DNA of 27,236 bases from a virus, in IMG/VR virus record IMGVR_UViG_3300047557_002353, positions 1-27,236 of that record. The stretch is one strand, 5' to 3'. A program made the translations under genes and the position numbers. Shown piece by piece: positions 1 through 22,492 of this stretch. The notes below the pieces were generated by a model. That model made no database searches. It was not told the origin of the DNA and was given only the letters and a program-made list of their open reading frames with translations. Every line of letters begins with the position of its first letter. Position 1 is the stretch's first letter.

Positions 1-590
1 CTTGAATTCACTAAATTATTAATTTTTTTCTTGGTATTTTCTACCAACCAATCATTTCTAGATGCATCATATACCCACTCTACTCCTTCCATGATTCCAT
101 TAACGAACGCATCAGGTGCGGAAGGATCTGCAACAATGTCAGCTGCAGTAGCTAACATAAAATCATCAGAAACATAACGAACACCATTACGCTCAACAAG
201 TGATCCAATTCCGCGAGAAGAAACACCAAGCTTTACTCCTTCTGATATTAAAGAAGAAGCAATCTTACCCATAGGGGTGTCTAAAATTTTAGCTTTTCCA
301 ATGAAGTTATTACCATCTTCTCTAAGAGAAGTAATCATGTGTGATACACGATCTAAATTTACAGTTGGTCCAGATGGGTGTCCAAGTTCACCTAAAGCTC
401 TACCTTTACTGATGTAATTTTCTGTGTATCTTCCAACTTCTCTAGCTAGAGTTTCCATTGGATAGCATCTACCATTTCTATTTTTTATATCTGCCTGAAG
501 AAAAATTCCCTCAATGTAAAGAGATTTTTTTCCATTTTTTTCTTCAGTAACAAATTTTACTTTAGAAATTTCTTCGGTGATTAGTTTCAT
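1..590 (-). CDS. 21: Prohead core protein protease gp21 (partial, C-terminus off the window)
   Basis: This serine protease cleaves the scaffold and capsid proteins inside the T4-type prohead before DNA packaging. The reading frame starts with ATG at 588-590 (MKLITEEISK) and stays open for 196 codons to the left edge, so the C-terminus is missing. The N-terminal strand pattern, the GELGHP motif with His71 and the GVSSRG motif with Ser124/Ser125 match the His/Ser catalytic residues of the T4 gp21/HK97-type prohead protease fold; Asp151 in TAADIVADP is a further conserved-looking acid. The gene follows the 88-aa gene after a 4-bp gap and lies downstream of the portal gene, exactly where gene 21 sits in T4. 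Which of the two adjacent serines is the nucleophile cannot be settled by eye. Confidence 0.93.
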   Translation of the reverse strand, partial: MKLITEEISKVKFVTEEKNGKKSLYIEGIFLQADIKNRNGRCYPMETLAREVGRYTENYISKGRALGELGHPSGPTVNLDRVSHMITSLREDGNNFIGKAKILDTPMGKIASSLISEGVKLGVSSRGIGSLVERNGVRYVSDDFMLATAADIVADPSAPDAFVNGIMEGVEWVYDASRNDWLVENTKKKINNLVNS

Positions 591-594
591 TTTA

Positions 595-861
595 TTAGTT
601 CGTAAATGCTACTTTGTTTGCTTGAATTTGTGAAGAAGTATAGATTACATCAGTTGGTAATTTTTCCAAAAATTCCACTGTCGTTGATGGTATTGCAAAT
701 TGAAAAGTAGTTCCAGCTCCAACAGAAGTGGAAATACTAACAGTTACAACACCTACAGTATTATTATATAATCTCACACAAGTAGCAGACCCAATACTAG
801 AAGCTAGTCCAGCACTAGTTGGAGTTGCAACTACATCAGAAAGAATTTTAGTTCTTTGCAT
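595..861 (-). CDS. Small conserved protein of marine T4-like phages, probable virion component
   Basis: This 88-residue protein starts MQRTKILSDV and ends at a TAA four bases before the gp21 start. It is rich in Ser, Thr, Val and small residues with an alternating, beta-strand-like pattern (for example VRLYNNTVGVVTVSIST at about 29-45), and has no signal peptide, membrane segment or catalytic motif. It occupies the place of T4 gene 68 (prohead core) but does not resemble that helical, charged core protein. I have an impression of similar small proteins at this position in marine T4-like phages, but no assigned function. A small capsid or head-decoration protein is one reasonable guess from position and composition; this is inference. 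A good late promoter box stands about 25 bp upstream, so it may lead a unit that includes gp21. Confidence 0.75.
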   Translation of the reverse strand: MQRTKILSDVVATPTSAGLASSIGSATCVRLYNNTVGVVTVSISTSVGAGTTFQFAIPSTTVEFLEKLPTDVIYTSSQIQANKVAFTN

Positions 862-886
862 TATCTTTAAAATAATTTTATCTAAT

Positions 887-894
887 TATTTATC
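887..894 (-). promoter_or_regulatory. T4-type late promoter box (GATAAATA) before the 88-aa gene
   Basis: Read on the minus strand this is GATAAATA, an exact match to the NATAAATA late-promoter box of marine T4-like phages, recognised by the phage late sigma factor gp55. It ends 25 bp before the ATG at 861 and overlaps the stop codon of the 50-aa gene. The spacing matches the other boxes in this window. Confidence 0.65.
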
Positions 895-1045
895 AATCCT
901 CAGTTTCTCCAAATAAAGATGCAGCAACATATGGTTTAAAATCATCAATTTTAGCTGCAGACTTTGTATAAAGAATATCTTTTATTTTGTCGCTAATCTG
1001 AGAAGGTGATTCATCAGAAGCAATCATATCCATTAGGTCATCCAT
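893..1045 (-). CDS. Short prohead core protein, gp67-like (50 aa)
   Basis: This short ORF begins at the ATG at 1043-1045 and ends at the TGA at 893-895, giving 50 residues (MDDLMDMIASDESPSQ... ending LFGETED). It is acidic, mostly helical by composition, and lies directly after portal gene 20, where T4 has gene 67 (PIP, a prohead core protein). The N-terminal pattern M-x-x-L-x-x-x-I-x-S, a central Ala/Lys helix, an ID-x-x-K segment and an acidic end loosely follow T4 gp67 as I recall it. T4 gp67 is about 80 residues with a long Glu/Asp tail, which is nearly absent here. The identification rests mainly on position; a different small core protein is possible. No clear ribosome binding site is visible. 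Confidence 0.65.
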   Translation of the reverse strand: MDDLMDMIASDESPSQISDKIKDILYTKSAAKIDDFKPYVAASLFGETED

Positions 1046-1078
1046 AAAAATTAAAATTATAGGTATTTTTATTTAGAG

Positions 1079-2761
1079 TTAAATTTCTCCACCTTTTGGT
1101 GGTTTTATTCCTTTTTCGCTTGGCTGTGGTTCAATTGGGACTTTTCCCATTTCTCCTTCTATATTACTAGTATTTTCTATTGGCATACCTGTATTTGGAT
1201 CTACAGGAATACTTGGATCTGGTATTATTCCTTCTTCTATTTCTTTTTTAATTAATTCATCTTGCTCCACAATTTCTTGGTCTGTTTGGCGGAGAATCTG
1301 TCTTCTTACATAATCTTGAGAATAATACTTTCCAATATAAGGTTCTGCCATTGATAGCATGTTAAGCCTATCTGTCATTAATTCAGAATTTTTCAGTTCC
1401 GCAAAGTGATTGTCATATAAAAAGTCATATTGAATATGTTCATTCATTAAGTCCCAATCTTCTGGGGTGATGATATTTTTCAATATTAATTGAGTTCTAA
1501 GCATATCACTAAACATATTAGAAAATCTTTTTCTCAATCTCCCAACAAACTTACTAAATTTTAGTTCATCTCTCAGAATTTCTGACGATCTACCCAGATT
1601 GAATCCACCTTCCCCATCAATTCTTGAAGGTGGTACATTCAAAGCCATGTATAGTTTAGATTGAAAGTAATTAATATCTGTAATTTCACCAAGATTTTGG
1701 CCCCCTGGAAGAGTGTCAATTTCTGTTCCTCTACCACCTTCGCGGCGAGGGAGCCAGAAATCTTCAAGCATACTCATAAATTTTTTGTCATCTCTTATTT
1801 CGCCAGTGCTTGCGTCATATACAAGTTTATTGCGATATCGCATCATGACATCACGAAGATATTGTTCTGCCTTTACTTTTGGTAAATTTCCAACATCAAT
1901 ATAAAATATCCTACGCTCTGGAGCACGACTGAGGCGATATATGACCAATGAATCCTCAATCATTCTTAATTGATTTAGAGCTTTAATTGCTTTGTTTAAA
2001 TATGAAAGAGTAGTTCCTTTATTTCGATCGACTAATCCAGAAGTGCAGTAAGTAATCGCATCCTTAGCAATTTTGACTCCTCGTTCTGGCGAAGCAGTAC
2101 CCATATTTGCAATGCCACCACCAACAGGATATGAACTCTTAGGATCATAGATAAAATACTCTTCAATCTCAGGAAATTTAAAGTTCATTGGATTTTGATC
2201 TCCAACCAACCCATTAGTAGTTCCCGAAACATTATTATCTTTTTTTACTTTTTTTTCTTGTCGGACATACCGCATTTTCATTGCGTCAATATAACGCAAT
2301 TCTTGAATCCCTAAATGTGGATTTTTAATATCAATAACTTTATGATAATACAATCTGCCATCAATATACCAATTTCTATAAATTTCGTGAGATTTTTTAT
2401 CGAAATCTAATAGTTCTAATATATACTTGAATTCTTCTCTTATTTTTTTCTTCAATCCATCACTTGCATTCAAATTAGATAATTCAATTTGCACTGGTGA
2501 ATCATTTGTGTCCGAAACAATAGCTTCATTTACAATATCTTCAATAGCACTATCTACCTCAGGGTGTAGTGCCATTTCTCTATATCGTTTAATTAAATCA
2601 AATTCAGTTCTATAAACTCCTTCAATGTCAACATAAGAACCAAAAAAGCCACTCGTCAGATAGTGATCAACCCCATCCTCATTATTTTGAGGAATGGGGG
2701 ATAGAACTGAGGGTGACTTTTTATTTGAATCTTCAATCGAAAAACCAAACAGTCTTGCCAT
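1079..2761 (-). CDS. 20: Portal vertex protein gp20
   Basis: This 560-residue protein is the portal, the dodecameric ring at the capsid vertex through which DNA is packaged and to which the neck attaches. The N-terminus (MARLFGFSIEDSN), the YREMALHPEVDSAIEDIVNE segment near residue 63-82, the RAPERRIFYIDVGNLPK segment near 280-296 and GGFNLGRSSEILRDELKFSKF near 387-407 are characteristic of T4-family portals; the last regions are well known from the g20 environmental marker gene. Length is close to T4 gp20 (524 residues), with a Pro/Glu-rich C-terminal tail after about residue 510. It follows gp19 by 30 bp and carries its own late promoter box overlapping the gp19 stop codon. The start is the ATG at 2759-2761. 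Confidence 0.97.
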   Translation of the reverse strand: MARLFGFSIEDSNKKSPSVLSPIPQNNEDGVDHYLTSGFFGSYVDIEGVYRTEFDLIKRYREMALHPEVDSAIEDIVNEAIVSDTNDSPVQIELSNLNASDGLKKKIREEFKYILELLDFDKKSHEIYRNWYIDGRLYYHKVIDIKNPHLGIQELRYIDAMKMRYVRQEKKVKKDNNVSGTTNGLVGDQNPMNFKFPEIEEYFIYDPKSSYPVGGGIANMGTASPERGVKIAKDAITYCTSGLVDRNKGTTLSYLNKAIKALNQLRMIEDSLVIYRLSRAPERRIFYIDVGNLPKVKAEQYLRDVMMRYRNKLVYDASTGEIRDDKKFMSMLEDFWLPRREGGRGTEIDTLPGGQNLGEITDINYFQSKLYMALNVPPSRIDGEGGFNLGRSSEILRDELKFSKFVGRLRKRFSNMFSDMLRTQLILKNIITPEDWDLMNEHIQYDFLYDNHFAELKNSELMTDRLNMLSMAEPYIGKYYSQDYVRRQILRQTDQEIVEQDELIKKEIEEGIIPDPSIPVDPNTGMPIENTSNIEGEMGKVPIEPQPSEKGIKPPKGGEI

Positions 2762-2785
2762 AATTTATTCTTGAACTGTATATCC

Positions 2786-2793
2786 TATTTATT
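2786..2793 (-). promoter_or_regulatory. T4-type late promoter box (AATAAATA) before gp20
   Basis: The minus strand reads AATAAATA, 24 bp before the gp20 ATG, overlapping the last codon of gp19. It is an exact NATAAATA match with spacing like the other late boxes here. Confidence 0.68.
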
Positions 2794-3433
2794 ACCTGAT
2801 TAATATTCCAGATTGATCAGTCGCTCCACCAGTATCTTGATTAGAGCCTGCAGCCCAATATTGAACTTGAAATTCTACAGTGTAATCTTCAATTACATCT
2901 GCACTCTCATAAGATAGGTCAATCGCAGAAATATTAGTTGGGAAAATATCATAGAACATGTAGGTTCTAAGTGGTGTGATTCCAGTACCACCAATGGTAT
3001 CTGAATTTGATGTGGATTCTTCCATTCTATTGTTTGTGCCCCTACCAAGCTGATGCACAAGTGCATTAGTCATATATGATCCTGGGTTTGTAGCACCAGT
3101 ATTATTGTCGAGTTTACTGATACCATTCATCCACAACTCAAGTGCAGAACGAATTGCAAAGTCTTCATCATTAATGATAGTAACTGTCCATGGATCTATC
3201 GTTCTGTCGCCAGCAACTTTTAGTATGCGACCTCTAAAAGGTACATCAATTGGGTTGACATTAGATGCTGGCAAATTGGCCGCTTTACATAAAAACTTAA
3301 ATGTTTCGGCTGGCCAATCTGCAGGAGCAGCAGCGTCTGGTAGAGTTGGAATTTCAACCTCAAATAGATTTGGTCTTGCGCCACCGCCTGCTAGTCTTGA
3401 TTTAAAGTTAGAAATTGTTCTGAGTGTAGACAT
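2792..3433 (-). CDS. 19: Tail tube protein gp19
   Basis: This 213-residue protein forms the inner tail tube of the contractile tail. The opening MSTLRTISNFKSRLAGGGARPNLFEVEIP, the LCKAANLPASNV segment near 48-59 with the following PFRGR, and the YWAAGSNQ stretch near the C-terminus are typical of marine T4-like gp19; T4 gp19 itself is about 163 residues, so this version is longer, with an insert-like Asn/Thr/Ser-rich stretch around residues 110-150. It sits immediately downstream of the sheath gene, the usual T4 pairing. The start is confirmed by a very strong Shine-Dalgarno sequence 7 bp upstream. No late promoter box lies in the 36-bp gap, so it is probably co-transcribed with gp18. Confidence 0.97.
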   Translation of the reverse strand: MSTLRTISNFKSRLAGGGARPNLFEVEIPTLPDAAAPADWPAETFKFLCKAANLPASNVNPIDVPFRGRILKVAGDRTIDPWTVTIINDEDFAIRSALELWMNGISKLDNNTGATNPGSYMTNALVHQLGRGTNNRMEESTSNSDTIGGTGITPLRTYMFYDIFPTNISAIDLSYESADVIEDYTVEFQVQYWAAGSNQDTGGATDQSGILIR

Positions 3434-3440
3434 TTTTAAT

Positions 3441-3448
3441 ACCTCCTT
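3441..3448 (-). promoter_or_regulatory. Strong Shine-Dalgarno sequence for gp19
   Basis: The minus strand reads AAGGAGGT, 7 bp before the gp19 ATG. It is close to a perfect anti-16S match, fixes the start codon, and fits the high copy number needed for a tube subunit. Confidence 0.85.
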
Positions 3449-3469
3449 TATTGTTGATTTTAATTATGA

Positions 3470-5662
3470 TCAGACTCTACCTACAACTTCCTCAAAGGAA
3501 ATTCCAGTTCTAGTAGCAACAAAAGTCAATGTAACATAATTAATAGATCTGGTCGGCTTTAGGAAAATGTCAGCCCTAAACTCATTGTTATCAATTACAT
3601 CAGGAGTGTTATTTGTAGTATCACAAACAACCAAGAAATCATATACGCCATTTTTTGCTTGAACATCTCTTAGATATGGCTCAACAATATTTACAAAGTT
3701 TGCCCTTGTAGTTTGGTTGTTAAGTTCAAAGAGTTGAGCTTCTGCGGATCTTCTCAATGCTTGTTCAACAGTCAAAAATAGTCTGCGAACATTAATTCTA
3801 TCAAATGCTGATGCGTAAGCAAGTGCAGTCTTATCACCAAACAATAAAATTCCAGTTCCTGGTTGATTGATGATTGAATTAATTCTTGCCTTATAAAGAA
3901 GATCTCTCTGTGATTTATTTGGATTGTATGCTAGCTTGATTGCATTATTCAAAACACCTCTTTGTTGGCCAGCTGGAGAGAACCATGGATATGCAGTAAC
4001 ATTTGTTCTGGCCATAAGACCAGCAATGTCAGCATTACATGGAATGTAACGGAATATGTTATTGAAGCGATCGTAAGTATACTTATAACCACTATCAAAT
4101 ATTGCATAAGAAGAGGATGATAATGGAGAGAAGAAATCTACTACATTATTTGTTTGTGTGGTTGTATTAGTCACATTGATAACAGAAGCTCTATATGGAG
4201 AAATTACTGCCACACAGTCTTTTCTGTTTTCTGCGATTGAAATTAATTTATTTGCTTTCGCTTGTGAATCTTCTTTTGTTTCTAGTCCAGGACCACAGAT
4301 CAAGTAATCTACTTCAATTTCATCTTCATTTGAAAATAAATCATATGCGGTATTCAATGCACCAAGAGTAGCTTTTGCACCATTTCCTGAATAATCGGCT
4401 CCTGCAGTAAGCTCAAAAGTTACATTGCCGATAGCATTGAATATAGTCCCTTGTGCCTCTTGATTCCAACCACCACTGGAAATACTTAGTGGGGTAAATG
4501 ATGCTGATGGAACTCCAGAATAAGTACTGAATCCAGTTGCTACTGGAGTAATACCATTTAAAGTATCAGTTGATGTATAATAGTTTGTACCAGAATAAAC
4601 ATAATTAGAGAAATTAGCTAGATAATTTCTATACCAAGTCTTCTGTGGTGAATTTACTCCTGATATAGAATCAGTTGCCTTAGAAATTGAAATATGCTTT
4701 TCAAGAATATTTCCTTGTACACCAGTTAATGAGCCAGTATCATCAATAATTACAATGTTTAGAGCATCATTTTTTGCATTTCTTGTGGCTGCGTATTGAT
4801 TTGTAACTGGTTTTGGTGCAATTGATCGCCAGAATAAAGTTGAATTTGTTAGACCAAGAGTTTGCTGATCATACCAATCTTGTACAGTAGTAGCACTATA
4901 AAGTCCAGTTCCAGTAGAAATACCAGAATTATTAATAAAAGTTAAATTCTCTCCCAAAGAAATAGAAGTTAGATCTGATCCCTGGGCATAATTTATTTGA
5001 GTTTCAGTTCCAGTTGAGGATACTCTGGATACGATCTTAACATCAAAGCTTGAATTTCCAGTGGTGCTGGTGGTCACTCCAGTGATAATACCTTTTAAAT
5101 ATCCACTGAATTCTGATGTAGTTCCTATTCCAGCAAAAGCAACATCAGAAAGTGAAACAGTAACACCATAGCCAATTTGTGCACCTGCTGCACCTAGATC
5201 GTTAGTATTAATTCCAATAATCTGATCTGCTTTATCGTCAATTACACAAACTTTAAGTCCATTTGCCCAAGTACCAGGAGTTTTTGCTGCAAAATGATAA
5301 GAACCAGTTTCTTGGGTATTATAATCATCAAAATTTTTGATGTCTACAGTTGCTGTAGTATTATAACCAACTCTTGCATTTTTAAGGTTGCTGTCATCAA
5401 CTCGAACAACTTTAAGAATACCACCATAAGATAGGTACGAAGATGCGCTCATCCAATACTCATACTGAGCATCGGTTGATAATGGTTTGCCAAAAGTGTT
5501 GATTAACTCTTGTTCTGTTGTGATATCGATTGGCTCTTCGACTGGTCCGATTGCAAATGGACCGGCAATTGCTCCAATGTTATCAATAACATTATCAGCT
5601 CTTCCTACAGTTAAATCAACCTCTCTGACAAGAATGCCTGGAGATAATTGAGGAGTCGCCAT
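3470..5662 (-). CDS. 18: Contractile tail sheath protein gp18
   Basis: This 730-residue protein is the tail sheath, which contracts to drive the tube into the host. The N-terminus MATPQLSPGILVREVDLT followed by a GPFAIGP motif and the C-terminal domain from about residue 600 (INSIINQPGTGILLFGDKTA, INVRRLFLTVEQALR, NNEFRADIFLKPTRSINYVTL) are diagnostic of the T4-family sheath. T4 gp18 has 659 residues; the extra length lies in the Ser/Thr/Gly-rich central region (about 150-450), the surface-exposed and variable part of the sheath. An AGGGAG ribosome binding site lies about 8 bp before the ATG at 5660-5662, and a late promoter box lies further upstream. Confidence 0.97.
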   Translation of the reverse strand: MATPQLSPGILVREVDLTVGRADNVIDNIGAIAGPFAIGPVEEPIDITTEQELINTFGKPLSTDAQYEYWMSASSYLSYGGILKVVRVDDSNLKNARVGYNTTATVDIKNFDDYNTQETGSYHFAAKTPGTWANGLKVCVIDDKADQIIGINTNDLGAAGAQIGYGVTVSLSDVAFAGIGTTSEFSGYLKGIITGVTTSTTGNSSFDVKIVSRVSSTGTETQINYAQGSDLTSISLGENLTFINNSGISTGTGLYSATTVQDWYDQQTLGLTNSTLFWRSIAPKPVTNQYAATRNAKNDALNIVIIDDTGSLTGVQGNILEKHISISKATDSISGVNSPQKTWYRNYLANFSNYVYSGTNYYTSTDTLNGITPVATGFSTYSGVPSASFTPLSISSGGWNQEAQGTIFNAIGNVTFELTAGADYSGNGAKATLGALNTAYDLFSNEDEIEVDYLICGPGLETKEDSQAKANKLISIAENRKDCVAVISPYRASVINVTNTTTQTNNVVDFFSPLSSSSYAIFDSGYKYTYDRFNNIFRYIPCNADIAGLMARTNVTAYPWFSPAGQQRGVLNNAIKLAYNPNKSQRDLLYKARINSIINQPGTGILLFGDKTALAYASAFDRINVRRLFLTVEQALRRSAEAQLFELNNQTTRANFVNIVEPYLRDVQAKNGVYDFLVVCDTTNNTPDVIDNNEFRADIFLKPTRSINYVTLTFVATRTGISFEEVVGRV

Positions 5663-9528: not shown

Positions 9529-10533
9529 TCAATCTAAAGAACCAGAAAAACCAAAATCATCGCCAGGCTCTATCAACAAATCATCAGCTGCAGTGATTAA
9601 TTTAACATCAGAACCAGATACATGAGAAAGGATTAAAGTTGAATCTTGTCCTCTTCTTACAGTTAATGTATTACCAGAGACAGACTCAACATAAAATTCT
9701 TCTTGATTAATATCGATATAAGAACCAGAAATAATACCAGATGCATTAACCACATCAATTAATGTGTCTGATTTTTCTATATCTTTTGCTACTGTGGTAG
9801 TTACAGTTCCAGTATAATTTTGAATTGCACGAGGCTCAACACTGTAGACAACTTCTCTTCTAGCAACTCCAGATGCCTCACCAGCAGCAAATCCAAGAGA
9901 CACTTTTTTGATAATTTCACTAGAAACAGAATCGGAAGAAACTGGACCAAACAGATATGTTTTTGCTGTAAATTTTAAGGTATAAATTAATGCTCTACGC
10001 TCAGTGTAATCTCCCTCATAATTATCTGTCATTGATATATTATCTAAAACTATAGGTATATCTCTTTTTTCTCCAATTTCTTGTACTAAATCTACAGTTA
10101 AATTATAATTTGGTTGAAAGTATGGTAATATCTGTTCAACTATTTGGAGCATATCATCATTAAGTTTTGTCATGATGCTCAGTTCAAAATTTAAATTATA
10201 AGGAACTGGAAGATATGCTTTCTTTATTTGATTATTATTTACATCTCTAGTTAAAAAAGTCTGAGTTGTAGTTAATTTTCTTGTTGTGTCATAAGACATT
10301 CCAATTAATTCAAATGACATTCTTGGCAAATTCATTTGAACTGGTTTGTTCAGATTGGGAACTTGTTCCAATCTCGCTAAGAATTTTTGAGTTGGACCAT
10401 AAGATAGTGGAACTCTGATAGAACTTTTTACATTTCCAGTGTCATCCTTATGTTTAATGGAAATTCCATTAAACAAAGTACCGAAAGAAACTACAGTCTT
10501 TCTGATTATTTCGTGATAAAAATATTCAAACAT
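9529..10533 (-). CDS. 15: Tail completion / sheath stabiliser protein gp15
   Basis: In T4, gp15 forms the hexamer that caps the tail and joins it to the neck. Residues 1-195 match that family: MFEYFYHEIIRKTV, a VPLSYGPTQKFLARLEQ segment near 41-57, PYNLNFELSIMTKLNDDMLQ near 111-130 and IVEQILPYFQP (131-141), which is almost identical to T4. T4 gp15 has 272 residues; here the protein runs to 334. The tail contains an extra module at about residues 251-311 (SDTLIDVVNASG, EEFYVESVSGNTLTVRRGQDSTLILSHVSG) that also appears in two other structural proteins of this window. The start is the ATG at 10531-10533. No exact late promoter box is present in the 47-bp gap upstream. Confidence 0.94.
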   Translation of the reverse strand: MFEYFYHEIIRKTVVSFGTLFNGISIKHKDDTGNVKSSIRVPLSYGPTQKFLARLEQVPNLNKPVQMNLPRMSFELIGMSYDTTRKLTTTQTFLTRDVNNNQIKKAYLPVPYNLNFELSIMTKLNDDMLQIVEQILPYFQPNYNLTVDLVQEIGEKRDIPIVLDNISMTDNYEGDYTERRALIYTLKFTAKTYLFGPVSSDSVSSEIIKKVSLGFAAGEASGVARREVVYSVEPRAIQNYTGTVTTTVAKDIEKSDTLIDVVNASGIISGSYIDINQEEFYVESVSGNTLTVRRGQDSTLILSHVSGSDVKLITAADDLLIEPGDDFGFSGSLD

Positions 10534-11959: not shown

Positions 11960-12508
11960 TTAAACTCTTTTAAATGTATATCCACGATGCTTATTTTGCC
12001 CTCTACCATTCAAACATTTACATATGGTGGAAGGATCTCCATTTATGTATTTTGCACATTCTTTTATTGAGTCAAATTTCATATTAAGTTCAACAATGAT
12101 TACCGGACATGTTGGTAAATTATTTCCTTTCCCTTTTTTTGACATAGAAACTGACTTAGCTCGTCTTTTTCTTTCTTCTTCTGTTATATTTTTCCAGTAT
12201 TTTTTTATTCCATTTATGTGATTCTTATTTCCTTTTGTCATTTTTGGTGGAAGTTCTCCGCCATCAGTTCTATTATATAATATTCCTGTTCCCAAATCTT
12301 TCCTGCCATATTTTTTTATATAATATTTTTCTTTTTCTAGTGCCTCTTCTTCTGTTAAATTTTGATGTGCTTTTATTCTTCTCTCTGGTGGGGGTAGACT
12401 TATTCCAGGGTGATACTTGTTATTTATCCTACTATTACATCCTTTTCCAACATAATATGGAGTTCCATCTTCTCTTAAATAAAAATAACAATAATACTTA
12501 TTTTTCAT
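11960..12508 (-). CDS. Free-standing GIY-YIG homing endonuclease with NUMOD-type DNA-binding tail
   Basis: This 182-residue protein has a degenerate GIY-YIG nuclease domain at its N-terminus: YFYL (8-11) and YYVGKG (18-23) stand for GIY and YIG, with Arg27 and the metal-binding Glu60 in LEKEKYYIKKYG, then LYNRTDGGE. A NUMOD3-like Lys/Ser stretch follows (about 117-130), then a helix-turn-helix NUMOD1/IENR-type tail (FDSIKECAKYINGDPSTICKCLNG, about 145-168, ending YTFKRV). Such enzymes cut a cognate site in phages lacking the gene and spread by repair, like the seg genes of T4. It fills the space between two intact neck genes. The ATG at 12508 gives a TGA-T-ATG junction with gp13; an upstream TTG at 12517 would also be in frame but overlaps gp13 and is less likely. 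Confidence 0.9.
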   Translation of the reverse strand: MKNKYYCYFYLREDGTPYYVGKGCNSRINNKYHPGISLPPPERRIKAHQNLTEEEALEKEKYYIKKYGRKDLGTGILYNRTDGGELPPKMTKGNKNHINGIKKYWKNITEEERKRRAKSVSMSKKGKGNNLPTCPVIIVELNMKFDSIKECAKYINGDPSTICKCLNGRGQNKHRGYTFKRV

Positions 12509-12509
12509 A

Positions 12510-13325
12510 TCAACCAATGCAATCTAGTGGGGGAATTTCATAGGTACTTGACATTCTTTCCATGATAATATCAAGTTCTCTTTGCGCATCATCATAAATT
12601 GGTCTTCCATCTAGTTCAATTCCACCAGGAAGTTTAACTCCTCTAAATTTAATTAAATTTTGGCCCCATTGTCTTTTAATCAGTGCAGTCAAATACTGCT
12701 TCAAAAATGAATCATTCCAAACTTTAGTCGATTCTGCTGGATCCAATGCTCGGTAGCAATCAATGACAATAACTTGACCAACAGTCAAACTAGACCAGTC
12801 TATATCTAAATATAGTTTATCTTCTCTTTTATTGAATCTAACTTGTTTTTGTGTTGTGAGTAACCAGTTTAAATCTTCAAGATATGTTTTTACCATAGAA
12901 TATGTTAAAAGCTCAGTTGACCCCCAATAATAAACATCATTGAGAAATAACTGGTATTTTATACTAAACATCCCACTGGAAATACTATTAGATCCTTCGA
13001 ATTGGAATATTTTATTAACTCCTATTACATAAGATGGAATTCTTAGGTAATTAGCTGTTTCTTGATATTCATATATTTTATCTCCAGTTACTGTTGTAAT
13101 TCCTACTCCTTGTTTACCTCTTGCTCTATCTAAGTCTTCCTGCGTAATTTCATACTTTAGAAAAGTTTGAGCAACTCCATCAAAATGTCTTTCTTGGAAG
13201 AATTGAACAGCATCATCTACTAAATCTTCAAGTTGTTCCTGTGCAACATTAATTTCTAATACTGGAGCACCTAATTTTCTTAGGCAATAATCAATTAATT
13301 CTTGTCTAGTAGATGGTTGTGCCAT
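12510..13325 (-). CDS. 13: Neck protein gp13
   Basis: This 271-residue protein is the T4-type head completion/neck protein that acts with gp14. The N-terminus MAQPSTRQELIDYCLRKLGAPVLEINVAQEQLEDLVDDAVQFF, the central LFLNDVYYWGSTELLTYSMVKTYLEDL and the C-terminal TALIKRQWGQNLIKFRGVKLPGGI segment with STYEIPPLDCIG at the end are typical of marine T4-like gp13. T4 gp13 has 309 residues. The gene is complete even though a homing endonuclease gene begins one base after its TGA. The start is the ATG at 13323-13325, three bases after the 54-aa gene's stop, so translation may be coupled. Confidence 0.93.
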   Translation of the reverse strand: MAQPSTRQELIDYCLRKLGAPVLEINVAQEQLEDLVDDAVQFFQERHFDGVAQTFLKYEITQEDLDRARGKQGVGITTVTGDKIYEYQETANYLRIPSYVIGVNKIFQFEGSNSISSGMFSIKYQLFLNDVYYWGSTELLTYSMVKTYLEDLNWLLTTQKQVRFNKREDKLYLDIDWSSLTVGQVIVIDCYRALDPAESTKVWNDSFLKQYLTALIKRQWGQNLIKFRGVKLPGGIELDGRPIYDDAQRELDIIMERMSSTYEIPPLDCIG

Positions 13326-13708: not shown

Positions 13709-16213
13709 TTAAGCTAATGCTATAACTCTAAGATCAGATAGTCTAGGTGGAAAAGCTTGGTTTGTGCCAGAACCAATTAATTTTATACTAAAATATTTGA
13801 ATGGGGAAAGATTATTTACTGTAAATTCATACTCTTTATATTCTAAATCTGCTGAATTATAACCAATTTTATTTGTTTTAACTATTTTTTTATCTGAAGT
13901 TCCATCACTTAAGGATTGTGAAATCACCCTACCATCATCAGTGAGGTTTGAATATCCAGGGAAAGGATAAAAAATTGATTCATCAGTTGCATTACTTTTA
14001 ATTGAATATAGTGCTCTAAGATCACTAAAAACATTTACATATGCAGTAACAAGTACTTTTAATGAAGTTGCTGGAATTTCTAGTTGAATGGCATTAGTTG
14101 CATAAATGAATGCTGAAGGATCATCGACAATAGTACTAACTCTATTATCTGTAGCATAATTTTGAATAGGATTATTGATCCTATTAGTTGTGAATATAAC
14201 TGATGATCGATCCAAATCAACTGTTGGTGATATATAAGAACTTGTTGTTGATAATGCTAAATCTACTGTTAATGATTTTTTTGCTGGAAGTGTGGATAAT
14301 CTTTCGTCCTCATTTACTTTTGAACAAACTAATCTTGGTGAATCGAAATAATTATTTTGATAAAGTTTTACATTAGTGAATCCTTTATCCTGGAATGAAT
14401 TTTCCAAACCATCAACACTAGTTCCAGAAACTGTTCTCATTGATGCTGTGATATTAGTTCCATTGATTGATGTAGTTTGTATATTTGGATTTGCGATTTC
14501 ATACTGAATATTTTGAGTGCAATTTATAGAAGATCCTCCTGTTGATTTTGTCTCATTTGCATATAATTTGGGGAAAGAAGTTCCGACGCTTCTATCAACT
14601 TGACCATAAGGAAGAGCATCAGTTTTTCCATTTTGGGATGTATCTATTTTAATTGTGTAGTAATCAAAATCAACTGGGTCAAAAACCGTAGCATCTTGAA
14701 GTGTATGTGTAGTATTAATTCTTCTCAAAGATATGCCATTTAATTCATACTTATATACTGAAACTCCTTGAGAATATGAAAATGGTAGAGTTTGATCAAT
14801 ACCTCTAGTTATTCCAGTTAAAGAATTTGCAGTTACTCCTTCATAAGAAATAATTTCACTTCCAATTAAAACATATCCTGGATTAGTATTACTAACACCA
14901 ACATTTTCAAAAGTAGAAAAACTGATAGTGCTATCTACTAAAATATCTTGATTTGAGTCTTTACCGTACTCTGCCGTCAGTTTGATTGGTTTGACATTTC
15001 CAATAACATTTGATATCCTTACAATATTTTCTCCTGCGTGCATTCCATGATTTCTATGATTTACTCTTACATGCAACCCATCTGTTTCTACCTGAATTCC
15101 ATCTGCTGGTATAAGAACATTACCACCAATAGAAGAATTTAAATCTGTAGTTATGCCAGAATTATTAACATACTGAATTGCTTTTGCAGTTCCAACTTCA
15201 AACTCTCCTTGAACATTGTCAATTATTAGCTCATTTATCCCACCTAGTTCTGATACTGATATTTGTAAGTTTCTACCAAGAGACTTAGTTCCAATTTGCG
15301 TAGATGTTAAAACATCTCCAACAACATATCCTGTTCCACCATTAGATATTGTTGCTGCAATAGCAACGCCATTAGAAATGGTAATATTTGCAGTGGCATC
15401 TCTGCCATTTCCTGTAATATTACTTAAAGAAACATTATTATATGTAAAAGATCCTGATGTTGGTGTGTAACCAATACCGGCATTAATTAAAGTTAAATTT
15501 CCTTTTGCAATCCCTGCTGCTGCAATATAATTTCCTGTTGCATTAGTTTCTTTTTGTAGGATTGTATTTCCAAAAGTAAGATTTGTATCTTGGACTGTTG
15601 TGCCTAAACCAACTCTTATCTTTTTTGAAGAAAATTCAAGAGAATCTTTAACTAAAGTTGAAACTTGACCATTTCCTGGACTTGACTCTGGATTATAGAA
15701 AGAAAAATTTCCTTGACCTTGAGTAAAATTTGCTCTATATAATGTAAATTTTAGATCTTCAAATGGACTTTCATTCCAGGTTGAAGCATTTTGGGACTTA
15801 AAAAGTCCTCCAGATACTGGCTGCTTAGTGACTACAAATTGAGATGACTCTTGTAAAGATATAGTTGAAACATCAATTTCCCCTAATCTAGAAACCCAAA
15901 CATTATAATTTTGAGATTGTGAAATTATAACAAGAGAATGAAATGTTTGACCTTTAAGATAAACTGGAGAAGGAAAAGTTACTCTAGTCGGAACTGAAGC
16001 ATCATCGTATGCTTGAATATCTTTAGGATCTAATATAACTTCACCAAACGGATATACTTTCTTAGTTGGTACGCCAAGTTCCATTGGCCTAAGTTGGACT
16101 GCCACTGGCAAATCATCGTCTTTAGATAAAAAGTACAAATCAACAGAAGTAATAAAAGCACCTCTTCTATTTTCAATATAAAAAGATTGTGCCAATGGAT
16201 CTATAACTTTCAT
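13709..16213 (-). CDS. Structural protein beginning at DPLAQSF; apparent C-terminal half of a long tail/fibre protein
   Basis: This 834-residue protein opens MKVIDPLAQSFYIENRRGAF, followed by a beta domain (VDLYFLSKDDDLPVAVQLRPM, VPTRVTFPSPVYL) and ends FKYFSIKLIGSGTNQAFPPRLSDLRVIALA. In the related cyanophage proteins I recall, this DPLAQSF...DLRVIA block is the C-terminal part of one very long structural chain whose N-terminal part corresponds to the 1842-aa protein here. Two Gly-Tyr repeats lie near residues 246 and 295, and an Arg-Gly hinge-like module (ISFSTFENVGVSNTNPG, SEIISYEGVTANSLTGITRG) near 430-490. The gene sits between gp8 and gp13, where T4 carries baseplate and short-fibre genes. 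It has its own late promoter. The start ATG at 16211-16213 is well placed relative to that promoter. Confidence 0.85.
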   Translation of the reverse strand: MKVIDPLAQSFYIENRRGAFITSVDLYFLSKDDDLPVAVQLRPMELGVPTKKVYPFGEVILDPKDIQAYDDASVPTRVTFPSPVYLKGQTFHSLVIISQSQNYNVWVSRLGEIDVSTISLQESSQFVVTKQPVSGGLFKSQNASTWNESPFEDLKFTLYRANFTQGQGNFSFYNPESSPGNGQVSTLVKDSLEFSSKKIRVGLGTTVQDTNLTFGNTILQKETNATGNYIAAAGIAKGNLTLINAGIGYTPTSGSFTYNNVSLSNITGNGRDATANITISNGVAIAATISNGGTGYVVGDVLTSTQIGTKSLGRNLQISVSELGGINELIIDNVQGEFEVGTAKAIQYVNNSGITTDLNSSIGGNVLIPADGIQVETDGLHVRVNHRNHGMHAGENIVRISNVIGNVKPIKLTAEYGKDSNQDILVDSTISFSTFENVGVSNTNPGYVLIGSEIISYEGVTANSLTGITRGIDQTLPFSYSQGVSVYKYELNGISLRRINTTHTLQDATVFDPVDFDYYTIKIDTSQNGKTDALPYGQVDRSVGTSFPKLYANETKSTGGSSINCTQNIQYEIANPNIQTTSINGTNITASMRTVSGTSVDGLENSFQDKGFTNVKLYQNNYFDSPRLVCSKVNEDERLSTLPAKKSLTVDLALSTTSSYISPTVDLDRSSVIFTTNRINNPIQNYATDNRVSTIVDDPSAFIYATNAIQLEIPATSLKVLVTAYVNVFSDLRALYSIKSNATDESIFYPFPGYSNLTDDGRVISQSLSDGTSDKKIVKTNKIGYNSADLEYKEYEFTVNNLSPFKYFSIKLIGSGTNQAFPPRLSDLRVIALA

Positions 16214-16234: not shown

Positions 16235-16672
16235 CTATTTATTTTGATTAGTTATCAGCGTATTTTCATTGAGAAAATTTTTAGCATTTTCTTCTCCATA
16301 ATTCAAAGTTAACTCTTCTCCAATGTCAATATCTCTAGTTGCATAATGAACCATTATTTCATTTGCCCCATCAATTTGATAATCTAAATTTGAATTTAAA
16401 CTGTGATTATATAAACCACAATATCCCATTCCTATTACATACCCACCATTAAAATCATAACTGTATTGTATGATTGATTTTGTTAAATTCATCTCATCTG
16501 ATGGTATAAAAAAATATGGAAATTCTTCAATAATTTCATACTTTTTGATTTTTTCTTTTGCAAACACTCCCCATCTATGAATTTTAGACCTCCTTACAAA
16601 AACTTTTTCGGAAAAAAGCAATGAATCTTTATACACTGATCTTGAATTATTCAAATTGGATTCTTTTTTCAT
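16235..16672 (-). CDS. SET-domain protein, putative lysine methyltransferase
   Basis: This 145-residue protein has the core motifs of a SET domain, which transfers a methyl group from S-adenosylmethionine to lysine: HRWGVFAKEKI (residues 32-42), a GYCGLYNHSLNSN segment with the NHS cofactor motif at 89-91, and ARDIDIGEELTLNYG (111-126 region) with the GEELT-x-x-YG active-site motif and Tyr125. It is compact and lacks the Cys-rich pre- and post-SET regions of eukaryotic enzymes. It starts 11 bp after the S74-domain gene and precedes the 834-aa structural gene. A possible GTG start at 16675 directly precedes the chosen ATG at 16672. The substrate is unknown; a virion or host protein is a guess. 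Confidence 0.88.
   Translation of the reverse strand: MKKESNLNNSRSVYKDSLLFSEKVFVRRSKIHRWGVFAKEKIKKYEIIEEFPYFFIPSDEMNLTKSIIQYSYDFNGGYVIGMGYCGLYNHSLNSNLDYQIDGANEIMVHYATRDIDIGEELTLNYGEENAKNFLNENTLITNQNK
16236..16243 (-). promoter_or_regulatory. T4-type late promoter box (AATAAATA) before the 834-aa gene
   Basis: The minus strand reads AATAAATA, 22 bp before the ATG at 16213, overlapping the end of the SET gene. It is an exact NATAAATA match. Confidence 0.67.
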
Positions 16673-16683
16673 CACATTAGAAT

Positions 16684-16956
16684 TTATGGGTTCAAATCTT
16701 TAATACTATTTTTTAAATTGCTAATTTCTATATTTAATTCTTTTATTGATTCTATCATAACGGGAATTAGTTGAATATAATCAACAGCCAAATACCCATT
16801 TTCTTGTCTTTGGACCATTTCCGGAAATTCTTTTTGAACTTCTTGCGCAATAACTCCATAAGAATTTCCAGATACCCCACTAATTTCTGTCATCTTTTCA
16901 TTCCATTCATAGTACATTCCATTTAATTTTGAAATTTTATCTAGATAGAACCCCAT
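16684..16956 (-). CDS. Detached S74-type intramolecular chaperone domain (C-terminal body)
   Basis: This 90-residue protein matches the body of the Peptidase_S74 chaperone that ends many phage fibres and helps them trimerise: LDKISKLNGMYYEWNEKM (5-22), YGVIAQEVQKEFPEMV (33-48), NGYLAVDYIQLIPVMIESIK (53-72) and a C-terminal coiled coil. It lacks the Ser-Asp...Lys self-cleavage segment that begins such domains; that segment (SDINLKTN) is the very end of the preceding 1842-aa gene. The ATG at 16954-16956 lies seven bases after that gene's TAA, so termination-reinitiation is plausible. All three frames carry a stop within 16956-16966, so no single frameshift could join the two genes. It may act as a separate chaperone or be a decaying remnant. 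Confidence 0.85.
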   Translation of the reverse strand: MGFYLDKISKLNGMYYEWNEKMTEISGVSGNSYGVIAQEVQKEFPEMVQRQENGYLAVDYIQLIPVMIESIKELNIEISNLKNSIKDLNP

Positions 16957-16963: not shown

Positions 16964-19900
16964 TTACAAATTGCATAACCTATTTAGAGCATTGTTAATC
17001 TTTTGAATATTAGTCTTAAGATTGATATCACTCATGCCCATACCGCCGCCGCCCATATTGCCGCCGCCCATATTGCCGCCGCCCATACTGCCGCCGCTAC
17101 CGCTTGGTGCTTGTGCTGGTGCTGATGGAGATGCGCTATTATTACCGCCGCCACCGCCCAATGTCACTGCTTGACCTTTGATTATTGCCGTAACTGGGCC
17201 GATGCTTTTCACAGTGTTGCTGCCACCACCGTTGCCTGTATTTTTATTTGTAGGTCCAGTATTTTTATTTGTAGGTTTAGATGGCTCATTAATTTTTGCT
17301 TTAGTTGCACCTTGACCCACTTTTGCTCCAGCTAAAGAAACATTTTGTCCGGATCCAACGACAGTTTTAGGTCCATTTTTAGTATTACCTGTTGACACTT
17401 GGATATTATTAGTTTGTGCATATGAAGAAGAATTAATTGAACTAACAACCTTTCTTTCTTGCTTTGCAGTCATATCAGGATCAATTTTTCTAATTAAATC
17501 TCTAGGAAGACCTGCAGCTTTTGCTAGAGCTGTTAATCTATCTGCACCACTATCATATAATTTTGGTGTATTGTAGTTATAATAAACAATAGTTGGAGGT
17601 TTTGGCACTGGTCCTACTGGTCCTACTGGAGTCGGTACTGAAGTTACTGGTTGAGATCCAGAACTTCCTTGTCTTGAAAATGTAGGTGCTGCAGCAGGTG
17701 GAGCAGGTGGAGGAGTTGCTGGGCCTGGAATTGCAGGTTCATCTTCTGGGGCTTCTATTCTAATAGGTCTTGATACAATTACATTTTCTTGGACGGTATT
17801 AATTTTACCTTCAGAAACATACTTTTCTTCGGCACTTGTAGTGTATGTTCCATATACTAGAGAGTTAGATTCGCTACTAGTTAATCTGAATACTTTAGAT
17901 CCACACTCAAATTTGGGATTAACATCTACATTTGGATTTGGTATAAAGAAAGATCCTAAAATAGTTCCAGTTCTATCTGTTACTAGTCTAATATTAGTAA
18001 CAATTGCTTCTGCTTGGCTTGTCTGGCCTCTCAACTTCATTCCAATAGAAATATATCCATTAAATTGTCCTTGTGGTTGATTGGATAAACTATAAGTATC
18101 AACATTGAGAATAGATGATGTTGAACTATAAAGTTCCGGAATATTTGTAGTTGGATCGTATGGATTTATTGTATAGATATCCGTAGGGTTTGTGTAATCT
18201 CCATATTTGTGATTTTGCTTAGCAACTCTAAAAGTTATTTTTGGAGATAGACTATCTAAAGTATCAAAACTACCTATGACCGTTTCACCAACTTGAAAAA
18301 CTCCACTAGTCATACTAATTTCAACTAATTTTGGTATAATAAATTTACCAAAATTTACACCGTTAAAAAATGGATATACTCTTGTTAAAGGTCTTAATCT
18401 ATTTGCAGTAAACTCTACATTTCTAGACCTCATGTAAGGCATTATCTTCGTATCGAGTACTCTGTCGCCAAAAGATGTTCTCTTTTCGGGTATTACCCAA
18501 ATTTTTTCGGTCGCATTCCATTCACCACCTACAAATCCCTTTTGTGGGTCATATTCTAGAAGTTGTTCGAGTTCGGATTCTTCTCTATCAATAAAAAGTG
18601 TATTAGACGCATTTCTAACCTGATCTACCCAAACATCAGAAGATGGGAATAGTAAAATAGTACCAGTATAAAAATCTTCAATGTAAGGATTTACATTAAC
18701 CGCTCTTGATGCATATGGTTGTACTATTTCTGGAACTTCTTCATAGTCTAATGTTACTAATTGACCTGTTCTTCTTACTCCAGTTCCAATTAAATTTGTA
18801 TCCGTTTTTGCATCTTGTAGTGGATTTACTGATGTACCAATTCCAACTGAAGAATTTGTACCTAATAGTAAATCTATTGATGTTGTATAGTGATTTGGTC
18901 TTAATTCTACATTAGTGAGATCTATAGAATTTTTATATACTACCAGTCTATCTTGGGTATCTTTTGATGTAAAGTTATCTACAAAAAATCCAGATTTAAA
19001 TCTGTTTATTCCATTTTCATCTATTACTGATAGTGTAGATGTATTTAATTCAAGCAAAGAAAGTGAAGTATAATACTCTAAGTTTTCAATCCTATCCTCA
19101 AGTTTTGTAATGTCCGACATCGTATATCGTTTATGTTCTTTCAAATCAATATCAATTTCATTGATGTTAAGCAAATAAGGTGGAAGATAAACACTTGCAA
19201 CCTCTAAAACATCTTCATCAACAAGAGGTTGTTGTGGTTCTTCTGCGGAAACTCCATTTTTTACTTGTAAAGCACCATTTTTATTGAGAGTAATTTTATC
19301 AATTCTCGGTAGGTAGAAAGAATATGATAAAAGAATAGACTCATCTGAAGCCAAAACATTAGAGGCAGAATTTCCAGACTCAGTAAAATTCCTAGATAAG
19401 AACTCAAATGGAGATCTTGAATTTTCTGTTGGTGTAATCGGAGAAACTCTGGGTCTAATGTCTATAATATCAGAGTTTCTTAGTGTATCATATACACCAC
19501 TTATATAACTATAACCAAATTGCTCATATGAATTTACTGTTGTTATATCTCCAGTATCAGACGCAGAAAAACTTGCAGATTCAAAAACTACTTTTAATTT
19601 TCTTGTTGGTTCTTTTGTATTTTTTCTTCTTATTAACTTGGAGTAATCGTAAATTGTTTCTTTTTGATTTGAATCAATAAAGAATGAAGGACTAATATCA
19701 TTATCTCCAGTATCCGAAGATACAATAATAGCAGTAATGCCAGATTCTCTGAAAGTTATTTTTTCGCCTTCAATAAAAGAACTCGAATTCAGATAACTAA
19801 ATCCTACTTTTAGATCATTAATTTTTTCTACATAAATTCCGATAGATTTACTTCTTTCGCCAATAAATTCTTCTCCAACTAAAAGGTCTCCTGTTTTGCC

Positions 19901-22492
19901 TGTAGGTCCTGTTAGATTATTTAATATTAAAGATGGAGTATCTGGAGTTGAAGTATCGTTAGATTCATATATTCCATATATTGTAGATATATCCGGTTCA
20001 AGTAAGCAAATTTCCTCATCCTGTACTCTAGTCCCATATGGATAATTTCCATACCTAAGTCCATCATTTAATGTTGTTGCGCCAACACCTGAAGATGAAT
20101 ACTTAGATTTATCAATAACAATGGTTTTTATTCTATTTCTATTTTTAATCTTTGACTTTATATTAGTTTTTCTTAGAGTTGTAATTAATTTTGCGCTTCC
20201 ATTTCCAGAAAGTCCATTTATTGTTAGAGAACTCGATCCATTTGCAAATACAAATTTATCAGAACTAAGAGGCTCTGTTTGGCCATCTTCTCTTACTAAT
20301 ACATATCTCTCTTCGTCAAATGGTAAAAATGTTTCATTTGCTCCGGCATTTATTACTCCGGTAGAGTTCGATGATATTATCACATCAAACTGTTTTCTAA
20401 TAGTTAGATATGAATTAGTAAGATCTACATTTGAAATGTATGATTTTGGTAGAATTGTATATAAGGAGTTATCTTCAGATATTTGTAGAGATGTTGTAAC
20501 TATTCTAAAATCTGATGGTGTTATATCAGCTAATGGAAGAGACCCGTCGCATACTCCAGTGACAGTAGTTACTCCACTTATTGTCAAAGATCTATCTGAT
20601 ACAGATAAAACCTTAGCAAAAGTATTTGTAGAAAATCCTGGATTCGAGAATGCAACTAAATTTCCAACATTAGCAACACCGGAAAAGAAAGTATTTGATG
20701 TTGTAACTGTACTAATACCAGAAGATCCATCTGATATGTTTACTTGACCCACTAAAATTGATGGAGTTTGTAATGTGTCTGCAGTAAAAGTATATGCACT
20801 TCCAACAATACCATATAAAGACTTTACATCATTTATTCCGTAAGATTTTACTGACTTAGTTACTCTTGTATTTTCTATTCCATCAAAAATAAGTTTTTCG
20901 CCAAGAGAAAAAGTTCCATTTGTGGTATAGACAGTAACCGCAATTCCCGAAGAAACATCATATCTCAAATAACCAATTGCACCACTTTCTTTTCCTTTAA
21001 TATGAGTTGGTGTTTGTAATGTTATTGGTTCATTTAAGGTTAATGTTGTATATGTTTGAATATCGTAAAGTGAGATATCCCACTGATTTTCGTCTGGATT
21101 TGATGTTGTATATGATCCAGATTCTAACGCAAAATCATAAACTCTAGCTAATCCAATTTCATTCCCAGAAGCAGATGTTGGAGATTTTCCTACCCTACTG
21201 TCTCTAAGACTTACATAATAAGTTGTAGCAATACTAACAAGAGGAGATCCATATACTCTGTTTAGGGTTAAAGTTGAGCCAGTAAAATAATTTATACTTT
21301 GATCTACTAAAGTTTTTGTATCTCTTGGTTTCTGAAAATCTAAAAATGTGGGGCTAATAGTTTCAATTTCAAATCCACTAACATAAGCCTTAAGTGGAGA
21401 TATACTATATGTGCCAATACTTTCATCTGGAATACTATCATCATAAGTTAATTGATTTTCTTCAAATAGTCCATTATTTCCCTTAAAATCATTTAAACTT
21501 TCATTAACTCTAACAATTGGTGGATTTACATAATAATTCCCGGATTCATTAAATGTTCTTCTTGCAAATTCTTCTGCTAATGTATTATATTCAGTATTAC
21601 TTGCCTGACTAATAAGTTGTCCAGCATTAATTTCTAATAGCTGGATAAAGTTTTCAGTATCATTAGAATCTAATGGGATTTGATCTAATTTTACGAAAAT
21701 TGAAAATCTATCGGCACCAGGAGCTGAATAATTTGAAAATCCTTGAGCATTATCGTATAAAGTATCGTCATCTACTGCTGTTTTAATATCTTCAAATATT
21801 CTAAGACCTACTTTAGCACTAGGAATATTTGAATATGGATCTAGATATAAAATGCTAGTGGGAACATTTACAAAGTAACCTCTAAGAAAATAAATTCCCT
21901 CTTCTAGATAAACAGCAGATCCCAAAGAAGTTCCATCTTGAGAAACAACTGTGGCAAATCCTTCTCCGTTTTGAATTAAAATTTCTGTAGGATCTTCATT
22001 ATCTATTGTGTTAGGATCTATTACCTCAACATCCTGATCTAATAATAAATTTTCTCCATTTGCAAATGTTCTTTCTGAATTAGTTTCCGAATCGGATGCT
22101 AAATATTTTACAAATAAAGTTGTCCTATCAACTCCATTCCCAGATCTAATATAATTTTCAATTGTTGCAGTTACGCCACTTCTCTGGCCTCTTATTTTAG
22201 AACCTAATAAACTGTCAAGATAAAAATAAGAAGGGACACCCTGATAACTATCTTCTATGATAACACTGTTTAAGTCATTTTTATAAACAATATTTCCCGG
22301 TATAACTACAGATCCTTCTTTAAAAATATGATTACCAAATTGTTCAATTTGATTTTGTAATATTGACTGAATAGTAGTAAGTTCTCTAGCTTGAACTGGA
22401 TATCCAGGCTTGAAAAGAACTTTATGGTATCCTTTACCAGGATCAAAATCATCAAAGTAAGGTGATACGTTGAGATTAGTTTCTTGAGGCAT
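16964..22492 (-). CDS. Giant tail/fibre-type structural protein (DUF4815-like N-terminus) ending in an S74 cleavage segment
   Basis: This 1842-residue protein opens with NLNVSPYFDDFDPGKGYHKV and a LFKPGYPVQARELTTIQSIL block, the signature of a long virion protein family of marine T4-like phages (DUF4815-like). A coiled-coil start MSDITKLEDRIENLEYY lies at 1125-1141. From about 1582 the chain changes character: a Pro-rich linker (PGPATPPPAPP), a VGPVGPV stretch, a 7-residue tandem repeat (PTNKNTG), a Gly/Met-rich tract and finally MSDINLKTNIQKINNAL, where Ser1821 and Lys1826 fit the Ser/Lys cleavage dyad of S74 chaperones. The chaperone body itself is on the next gene. Its position between gp8 and gp13 suggests a baseplate or tail-fibre component. 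The start is the ATG at 22490-22492, nine bases after gp8. Confidence 0.88.
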   Translation of the reverse strand: MPQETNLNVSPYFDDFDPGKGYHKVLFKPGYPVQARELTTIQSILQNQIEQFGNHIFKEGSVVIPGNIVYKNDLNSVIIEDSYQGVPSYFYLDSLLGSKIRGQRSGVTATIENYIRSGNGVDRTTLFVKYLASDSETNSERTFANGENLLLDQDVEVIDPNTIDNEDPTEILIQNGEGFATVVSQDGTSLGSAVYLEEGIYFLRGYFVNVPTSILYLDPYSNIPSAKVGLRIFEDIKTAVDDDTLYDNAQGFSNYSAPGADRFSIFVKLDQIPLDSNDTENFIQLLEINAGQLISQASNTEYNTLAEEFARRTFNESGNYYVNPPIVRVNESLNDFKGNNGLFEENQLTYDDSIPDESIGTYSISPLKAYVSGFEIETISPTFLDFQKPRDTKTLVDQSINYFTGSTLTLNRVYGSPLVSIATTYYVSLRDSRVGKSPTSASGNEIGLARVYDFALESGSYTTSNPDENQWDISLYDIQTYTTLTLNEPITLQTPTHIKGKESGAIGYLRYDVSSGIAVTVYTTNGTFSLGEKLIFDGIENTRVTKSVKSYGINDVKSLYGIVGSAYTFTADTLQTPSILVGQVNISDGSSGISTVTTSNTFFSGVANVGNLVAFSNPGFSTNTFAKVLSVSDRSLTISGVTTVTGVCDGSLPLADITPSDFRIVTTSLQISEDNSLYTILPKSYISNVDLTNSYLTIRKQFDVIISSNSTGVINAGANETFLPFDEERYVLVREDGQTEPLSSDKFVFANGSSSLTINGLSGNGSAKLITTLRKTNIKSKIKNRNRIKTIVIDKSKYSSSGVGATTLNDGLRYGNYPYGTRVQDEEICLLEPDISTIYGIYESNDTSTPDTPSLILNNLTGPTGKTGDLLVGEEFIGERSKSIGIYVEKINDLKVGFSYLNSSSFIEGEKITFRESGITAIIVSSDTGDNDISPSFFIDSNQKETIYDYSKLIRRKNTKEPTRKLKVVFESASFSASDTGDITTVNSYEQFGYSYISGVYDTLRNSDIIDIRPRVSPITPTENSRSPFEFLSRNFTESGNSASNVLASDESILLSYSFYLPRIDKITLNKNGALQVKNGVSAEEPQQPLVDEDVLEVASVYLPPYLLNINEIDIDLKEHKRYTMSDITKLEDRIENLEYYTSLSLLELNTSTLSVIDENGINRFKSGFFVDNFTSKDTQDRLVVYKNSIDLTNVELRPNHYTTSIDLLLGTNSSVGIGTSVNPLQDAKTDTNLIGTGVRRTGQLVTLDYEEVPEIVQPYASRAVNVNPYIEDFYTGTILLFPSSDVWVDQVRNASNTLFIDREESELEQLLEYDPQKGFVGGEWNATEKIWVIPEKRTSFGDRVLDTKIMPYMRSRNVEFTANRLRPLTRVYPFFNGVNFGKFIIPKLVEISMTSGVFQVGETVIGSFDTLDSLSPKITFRVAKQNHKYGDYTNPTDIYTINPYDPTTNIPELYSSTSSILNVDTYSLSNQPQGQFNGYISIGMKLRGQTSQAEAIVTNIRLVTDRTGTILGSFFIPNPNVDVNPKFECGSKVFRLTSSESNSLVYGTYTTSAEEKYVSEGKINTVQENVIVSRPIRIEAPEDEPAIPGPATPPPAPPAAAPTFSRQGSSGSQPVTSVPTPVGPVGPVPKPPTIVYYNYNTPKLYDSGADRLTALAKAAGLPRDLIRKIDPDMTAKQERKVVSSINSSSYAQTNNIQVSTGNTKNGPKTVVGSGQNVSLAGAKVGQGATKAKINEPSKPTNKNTGPTNKNTGNGGGSNTVKSIGPVTAIIKGQAVTLGGGGGNNSASPSAPAQAPSGSGGSMGGGNMGGGNMGGGGMGMSDINLKTNIQKINNALNRLCNL
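17046..17090. repeat. 15-bp tandem repeat coding for Gly-Met-rich tract
   Basis: Three head-to-tail 15-bp units (consensus CCGCCGCCCATATTG, the third with one change) encode MGGGN-type repeats on the minus strand, flanked by further CCGCCG runs. They lie just before the S74 cleavage segment. The stretch is GC-rich inside an AT-rich genome, so its composition differs sharply from its surroundings. Confidence 0.9.
17235..17276. repeat. 21-bp tandem duplication coding for PTNKNTG twice
   Basis: Two adjacent 21-bp units differ at one position and encode the heptapeptide PTNKNTG twice in the low-complexity C-terminal region of the 1842-aa protein. This looks like slippage or unequal exchange within a fibre linker. 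Confidence 0.88.

Follow-up and report, generated by a model that had tools for sequence, protein, structure and literature searches.

The closest known proteins are PBCV-1 vSET (A612L) and S. pombe Set7, both of which are minimal SET-domain histone methyltransferases, and the SET type in general is better known from animals and plants than from phages. The phage protein examined here shares the size and predicted fold of these enzymes along with their GVFA, NHS and catalytic Tyr motifs, however, it is encoded in a virion operon, its neighbouring candidate substrate is almost free of lysine, and the Tyr-Trp that follows the catalytic Tyr loop in vSET is absent from it. SETD3, the actin-His73 methyltransferase, is a SET enzyme able to methylate a Met artificially placed at its target site, although Met is not its native target as reported there (PMC8446795), and the phage protein differs from it in being a bare SET domain of about 145 aa with no other Pfam domain. 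In the Lys-to-Met histone mutants (H3K9M, K27M, K36M) that trap SET enzymes, Lys in one state and Met in the other are likewise found opposite a SET enzyme (PMC5335568), but in the phages Met is the evolved, many-copy state within a Gly/Ser/Ala tract and Arg is replaced too. The Peptidase_S74 intramolecular chaperone of phage fibres is also present beside the SET gene, here split into two open reading frames (ORFs), but it occurs without SET as well and is therefore not its constant partner.

A minimal SET gene in a T4-like tail operon

The window analysed is a 27,236-base IMG/VR virus record (IMGVR_UViG_3300047557_002353) with T4-like structural genes. The preliminary description of a SET-domain gene within a phage tail-structural operon is confirmed. 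The ORF lies on the minus strand at 16235-16672 from ATG, or from a GTG at 16675 (145/146 aa), and on its own matches Pfam SET PF00856 at E 1.8e-12, with 48 bits against a cut-off of 22.4, over profile positions 2-105 of 105. Ten of 10 relatives also match this profile. The best solved-structure match is PBCV-1 vSET (E 7e-11), and the AlphaFold2 model (mean pLDDT 81.6) matches vSET 3kma at Foldseek E 1.9e-10 with a target TM of 0.87. The motifs HRWGVFA, NHS and GEELTLNYG, on which the SET call had been based, are present, and the alignment of 26 diverse relatives showed W34, G35, F37, E49, Y70, N89, H90, E120, Y125 and G126, including the N-H motif (SAM) and the catalytic Tyr, to be invariant. 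The protein matched no PHROG family at E 0.01, NCBIfam gave only a match to Vat(E) far below its cut-off, and Rfam gave 0 hits in the window.

The neighbours are as first described, with a Peptidase_S74 piece upstream and a structural protein downstream. Upstream, an 1842-aa virion structural protein at 16964-22492 on the minus strand (DUF4815, PF16075, E 1.1e-63; phrog_358 positions 1-1400, E 0) ends with an N-terminal piece of Peptidase_S74 at 16964-17032 (-), which reads SDINLKTNIQKINNALNRLCNL and then stops. The remainder of the chaperone is a separate 90-aa ORF with its own start at 16684-16956 (-) (PF13884, E 6.6e-9). The catalytic SDINLK strand, which conforms to the SDxxLK start of the family, ends the 1842-aa protein, while the rest forms a separate ORF of 85-90 aa that repeats the joining helix. 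The same split is found in loci L002, L014, L015, L016, L017, L019/L020, L023, L024 and L082 (L numbers denote the collected relatives' loci), and a sequencing frameshift was rejected as its cause, since it recurs in independent contigs. As the split is conserved with and without SET, the chaperone may act in trans. Downstream, an 834-aa structural protein at 13709-16213 (-) corresponds to the C-terminal part of phrog_358 (positions 1421-2055, E 6.7e-188). In three cultured Kyanoviridae (S-SCSM1, SynMITS9220M01 and DSL-LC03) the 1842-aa and 834-aa proteins are one gene of about 2,540-2,600 aa without SET, and the junction is a hypervariable low-complexity linker of Pro/Arg, Lys, Gly or Met type. 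Elsewhere in the window, a homing-endonuclease-like ORF (I-HmuI NUMOD-like, PF22083) lies at 11960-12517 (-) between neck and tail genes, and the homologue of the window gene at 9529-10533 is split into two ORFs of 131 and 167 aa in L010 (5544-6439). The remark that the SET gene has no late promoter of its own is compatible with the sequence but uninformative, as no exact TATAAATA core occurs anywhere in the window and sigma-70-like sites are below chance.

Relatives are rare among GenBank phages. Of 50,697 records, 2 matched the window protein at E 1e-5, with the same length and match coordinates and so probably two versions of one uncultured huge phage, while 2 matched L035 and 3 matched L083 at 0.01, all of them uncultured huge phages. 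One of these few is L093 (LR756501.1, a 735-kb uncultured phage), whose SET gene has the vSET-like ending YGGDNYW. In contrast, IMG/VR yielded 102 relatives, of which 80 loci were kept, and those with a near-complete SET fall into 20 clusters at 90% identity, one with 48 members. A scan of bacterial and archaeal genome contigs gave 55 pattern matches and 0 relatives. As far as these scans reach, this is a phage family. Members are also found outside virion operons, namely two clades (L083, L371, L374, L375 and L377; and L332, L335, L359, L362-L365, L367, L368 and L372), the huge-phage type L084/L088/L093 and the distant L339, none of which shows a Met-rich partner, so the coupling described below is limited to the virion-linked members. 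L084, L088 and L093 keep the Tyr-Trp of vSET (YGDENYW, YGDESYW and YGGDNYW), whereas the window protein reads YGEENAKNF and the virion-linked proteins read YG-x-E-N-A-x-x-F or close variants. This fits an altered acceptor pocket, although the loop alignment is uncertain. Close to the vSET-like gene of L084 there is an array of four similar ORFs starting MK(I/L)R(T/L/S)GFVSNSS (2520-4474).

Methionine-rich termini beside the SET gene

In the large freshwater group the SET gene directly follows a tail-fibre gene, often with a 4-base stop/start overlap. A survey of neighbours showed, however, that the fibre cassette is not the constant partner. The fibre C-terminal domain changes freely (of 42 non-redundant upstream genes 22 have S74, 19 tail repeats and 7 collar), S74 occurs without SET (L151, L153, L172 and L174), and in two of the four lineages described below, groups 3 and 4, we could recognize no fibre neighbour, so a link of SET to S74 or to fibres as such was rejected. 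What is constant is a methionine-rich, almost lysine-free terminus on the adjacent virion protein. In the window this is a Lys/Arg-free low-complexity tract, SGSGGSMGGGNMGGGNMGGGGMGM, at 17033-17104 (-) near the end of the 1842-aa protein, reading GGSMGGGNMGGGNMGGGGMGM immediately before the S74 autocleavage Ser of SDINLK. In the freshwater group the tract instead begins the downstream protein, for example MAMNMSNSGGGGGMSGGGGGGGGAMSAPAMS, in all 49 SET-bearing rows read. Across 296 loci (redundant) and 3,010 ORFs, 121 ORFs held a Met-rich small-residue tract, of which 96 lay within 400 bases of a SET gene, 6 farther off in SET loci and 19 in loci without SET. Lys makes up 0-0.6% of the tracts and Met 9-16%, and in the freshwater group the residue after Met is S/G/N in 561 of 564 cases.

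Homologous partner proteins in phages lacking SET usually end or begin with Lys/Arg, and this was observed in four phage lineages with different partner proteins. In group 1 (freshwater, 61 rows), 49 rows with SET have 3 or more Met and at most 1 K/R in residues 2-25, while 12 rows without SET start MAKKKSKQ, MGKKKKSK, MGGSPSKPK and the like. In group 2 (T4-like, the window lineage), rows with SET read GMGM or GGMM before the S74 Ser, rows without SET but with the same split S74 read GGKK, GGKM or GGRR (L151/L152, L153, L172/L174), rows without SET that have separate genes and no S74 often end KKKKK, NKKK, NKRK or RNRR, and fused cyanophage types have varied linkers, several of them Pro/Arg-rich. 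In group 3 (terminase-anchored, 44 rows), 2 rows with SET are Met-rich and 42 without SET bear K/R; L005, on a related terminase, also has SET and the Met tract. Group 4 is a podovirus-type group anchored on the head-tail adaptor phrog_449, for which the expectation was written down before the scan and then fulfilled: among 66 of 82 loci that were readable, 2 partners with SET have Met tracts and 64 without SET have none and mostly start MAKKNKN-like. In addition, 10 of 10 readable new SET loci in virion operons had Met tracts. Pooled over the 30 terminal residues, at least 2 Met are found in 65 of 65 rows with SET against 7 of 195 without, and at least 4 Met in 57 of 65 against 0 of 195, with a median K+R of 4-6 in SET-less rows of all four groups. 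These counts left out L142 and L143 (too distant) from group 1; L010 (row invalid, contig cut), L013 and L147 (duplicates) and six loci with no upstream sequence from group 2; L005 from the pooled count; and 16 of 82 group 4 loci and 38 of 82 group 3 loci without a readable partner, while L023 (short) was left out of the group 2 tree. It should be noted that the rows are redundant, that the Met/KR cut-offs for groups 1-3 were chosen after seeing the data, and that the records are mostly fragments, none of those checked being rated complete, so that absence of SET refers to adjacency and not to the whole genome in each case. The Gly-rich nature of the tract was considered as the shared feature and rejected, as Gly content varies and Gly tracts persist without SET (L086, L225, L226 and L280) whereas Met does not. 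Internal translation starts are an unlikely reason for the Met codons, since in group 2 the tract is C-terminal.

INDEPENDENCE. On trees of the anchor proteins the SET label changes at least 4, 6, 3 and 2 times in groups 1-4. This gives 4, 6, 3 and 2 phylogenetically independent pairs, 15 in total, with mean concordance of 3.9, 5.3, 3.0 and 1.9 (about 14) and no opposite pair in any group. Fourteen of fourteen would give a sign-test p of 0.00012, whereas the plain Fisher tests that were also applied ignore relatedness. The switch is also seen between very close relatives. L126 and L132 lack SET and start MGKKKKSK/MSKKKK although they are 92-93% identical over the aligned columns of the body to the SET-bearing L131 and L063, and L225/L226, with terminase 99-100% identical to that of L036, have MSKNKGGGGGGGNKPSGGGG where L036 has MGGMGGGGGGGMGGGG. 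L086 resembles a natural knock-out, being 99% identical to L002 in the 834-aa protein but with only 48 aa of SET remaining, a decayed S74 and a tract that reads GGGGRGGGGGGRGGGGGGRGGGGKR before the stop. Here Gly stays, Met is gone, and Arg and Lys are present, the tract ending KR. There are exceptions, however. L019/L020 have SET but only two Met (GGMGM) and keep Arg/Pro, L320 has SET with Met plus KKK, 5 of 195 SET-less termini have neither K nor R, and L153 has a Met-rich Gly tract inside a structural protein (561-5228) but no SET in its 122-kb fragment, making it the one clear discordant case.

What the coupling may mean

The interpretation offered in the preliminary description, in which late expression with virion proteins points to modification of a virion lysine or a host target, is partly supported. 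The SET fold with intact catalytic residues holds, as does a location fixed within virion-gene operons, which makes a virion target likely, but a lysine target is doubtful for this tract, while modification of other virion lysines or of host targets is not excluded. What the analysis demonstrates is a conserved SET protein, a fixed neighbour in the virion-linked members, and a repeated switch between K/R and Met at the terminus of that neighbour; enzyme activity, its acceptor and the purpose of the tract are all inferred. We are confident that the coupling of SET and the Met terminus is a real functional one. As a mechanism we tentatively favour, without regarding it as more likely than not, that the enzyme would use SAM to methylate the thioether sulfur of these methionines, at sites in which A/G/S/N precedes and S/G/N follows Met. 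Each Met would become S-methyl-methionine, a permanent sulfonium cation, and the tract would regain as a late modification the positive charge that Lys/Arg give in relatives without SET. As a further inference, the charged tail would serve the virion protein in assembly, surface binding or ejection. This single assumption would explain why both Lys and Arg disappear, why Met is gained, why the sites are flanked by small residues and why loss of SET goes with the return of K/R. The chemistry is possible given SETD3, although that precedent concerns an artificially introduced Met (PMC8446795), the fold is that of lysine methyltransferases, and the structural model cannot show the substrate. In its broadest form, which is possible but also short of probable, virion-linked SET proteins would be a phage enzyme family whose native substrate is protein methionine, poly-S-methylating Met-rich termini into sulfonium cations that stand in for lysine and arginine, in a switch gained and lost many times.

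The main rival, which we consider unlikely, is that Met side chains of the tract occupy the lysine channel of the SET protein and hold it there, with SAM, as a decoration or cargo of the virion without being methylated. Lys-to-Met histone mutants trap their SET enzymes with Met in the lysine channel (PMC5335568), the EZH2-H3K27M entry 5hyn is among the structural matches, and the many Met sites and translational coupling to the fibre gene would suit stoichiometric decoration. However, docking does not explain why SET-less relatives carry Lys or Arg at the same terminus, nor why both disappear together. Equally unlikely is an ordinary lysine methyltransferase acting on other virion lysines or on a host protein, with the tract having lost Lys because exposed Lys would be methylated. 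SET enzymes of this fold are mostly lysine methyltransferases, the SAM and catalytic motifs are intact, and Lys is rarer in the partner body too (0.23% against 0.81% in group 1), but avoiding Lys would predict Arg, yet Arg is lost as well and Met gained, and there is no general Lys avoidance, as Lys is not depleted in other ORFs of the same loci (3.17% with SET, 2.88% without). A mobile cassette in which SET and the tract travel together with no biochemical dependence is the least likely reading, for although the two are adjacent, tail genes are recombination hot spots and SET moves between partner types (on the SET tree L319 of group 4 joins L254 and L316 of group 3 with a starred branch while L036/L325 of group 3 lie elsewhere, and Met termini appear with the gene), the tract sits at the C-end of the upstream protein in group 2 but at the N-end of the downstream protein in groups 1, 3 and 4, so that one hitchhiking DNA segment cannot explain all, Met is lost in L086 with SET decay while the Gly tract stays, and the Met pattern survives while flanking residues change from Gly-rich to Ser-rich or PMNN-type.

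While the SET fold itself is known, we regard the module of SET plus Met terminus as new, and searches of a collection of papers returned no description of it. If the tract methionines are methylated, this would be a natural protein methionine methyltransferase and a new way to place fixed positive charge on a virion after translation. If instead they only dock the enzyme, it is a natural version of the Lys-to-Met trap of cancer histones, built into a virus particle. Either way, phage SET proteins gain a testable partner, with natural pairs with and without the gene as controls.
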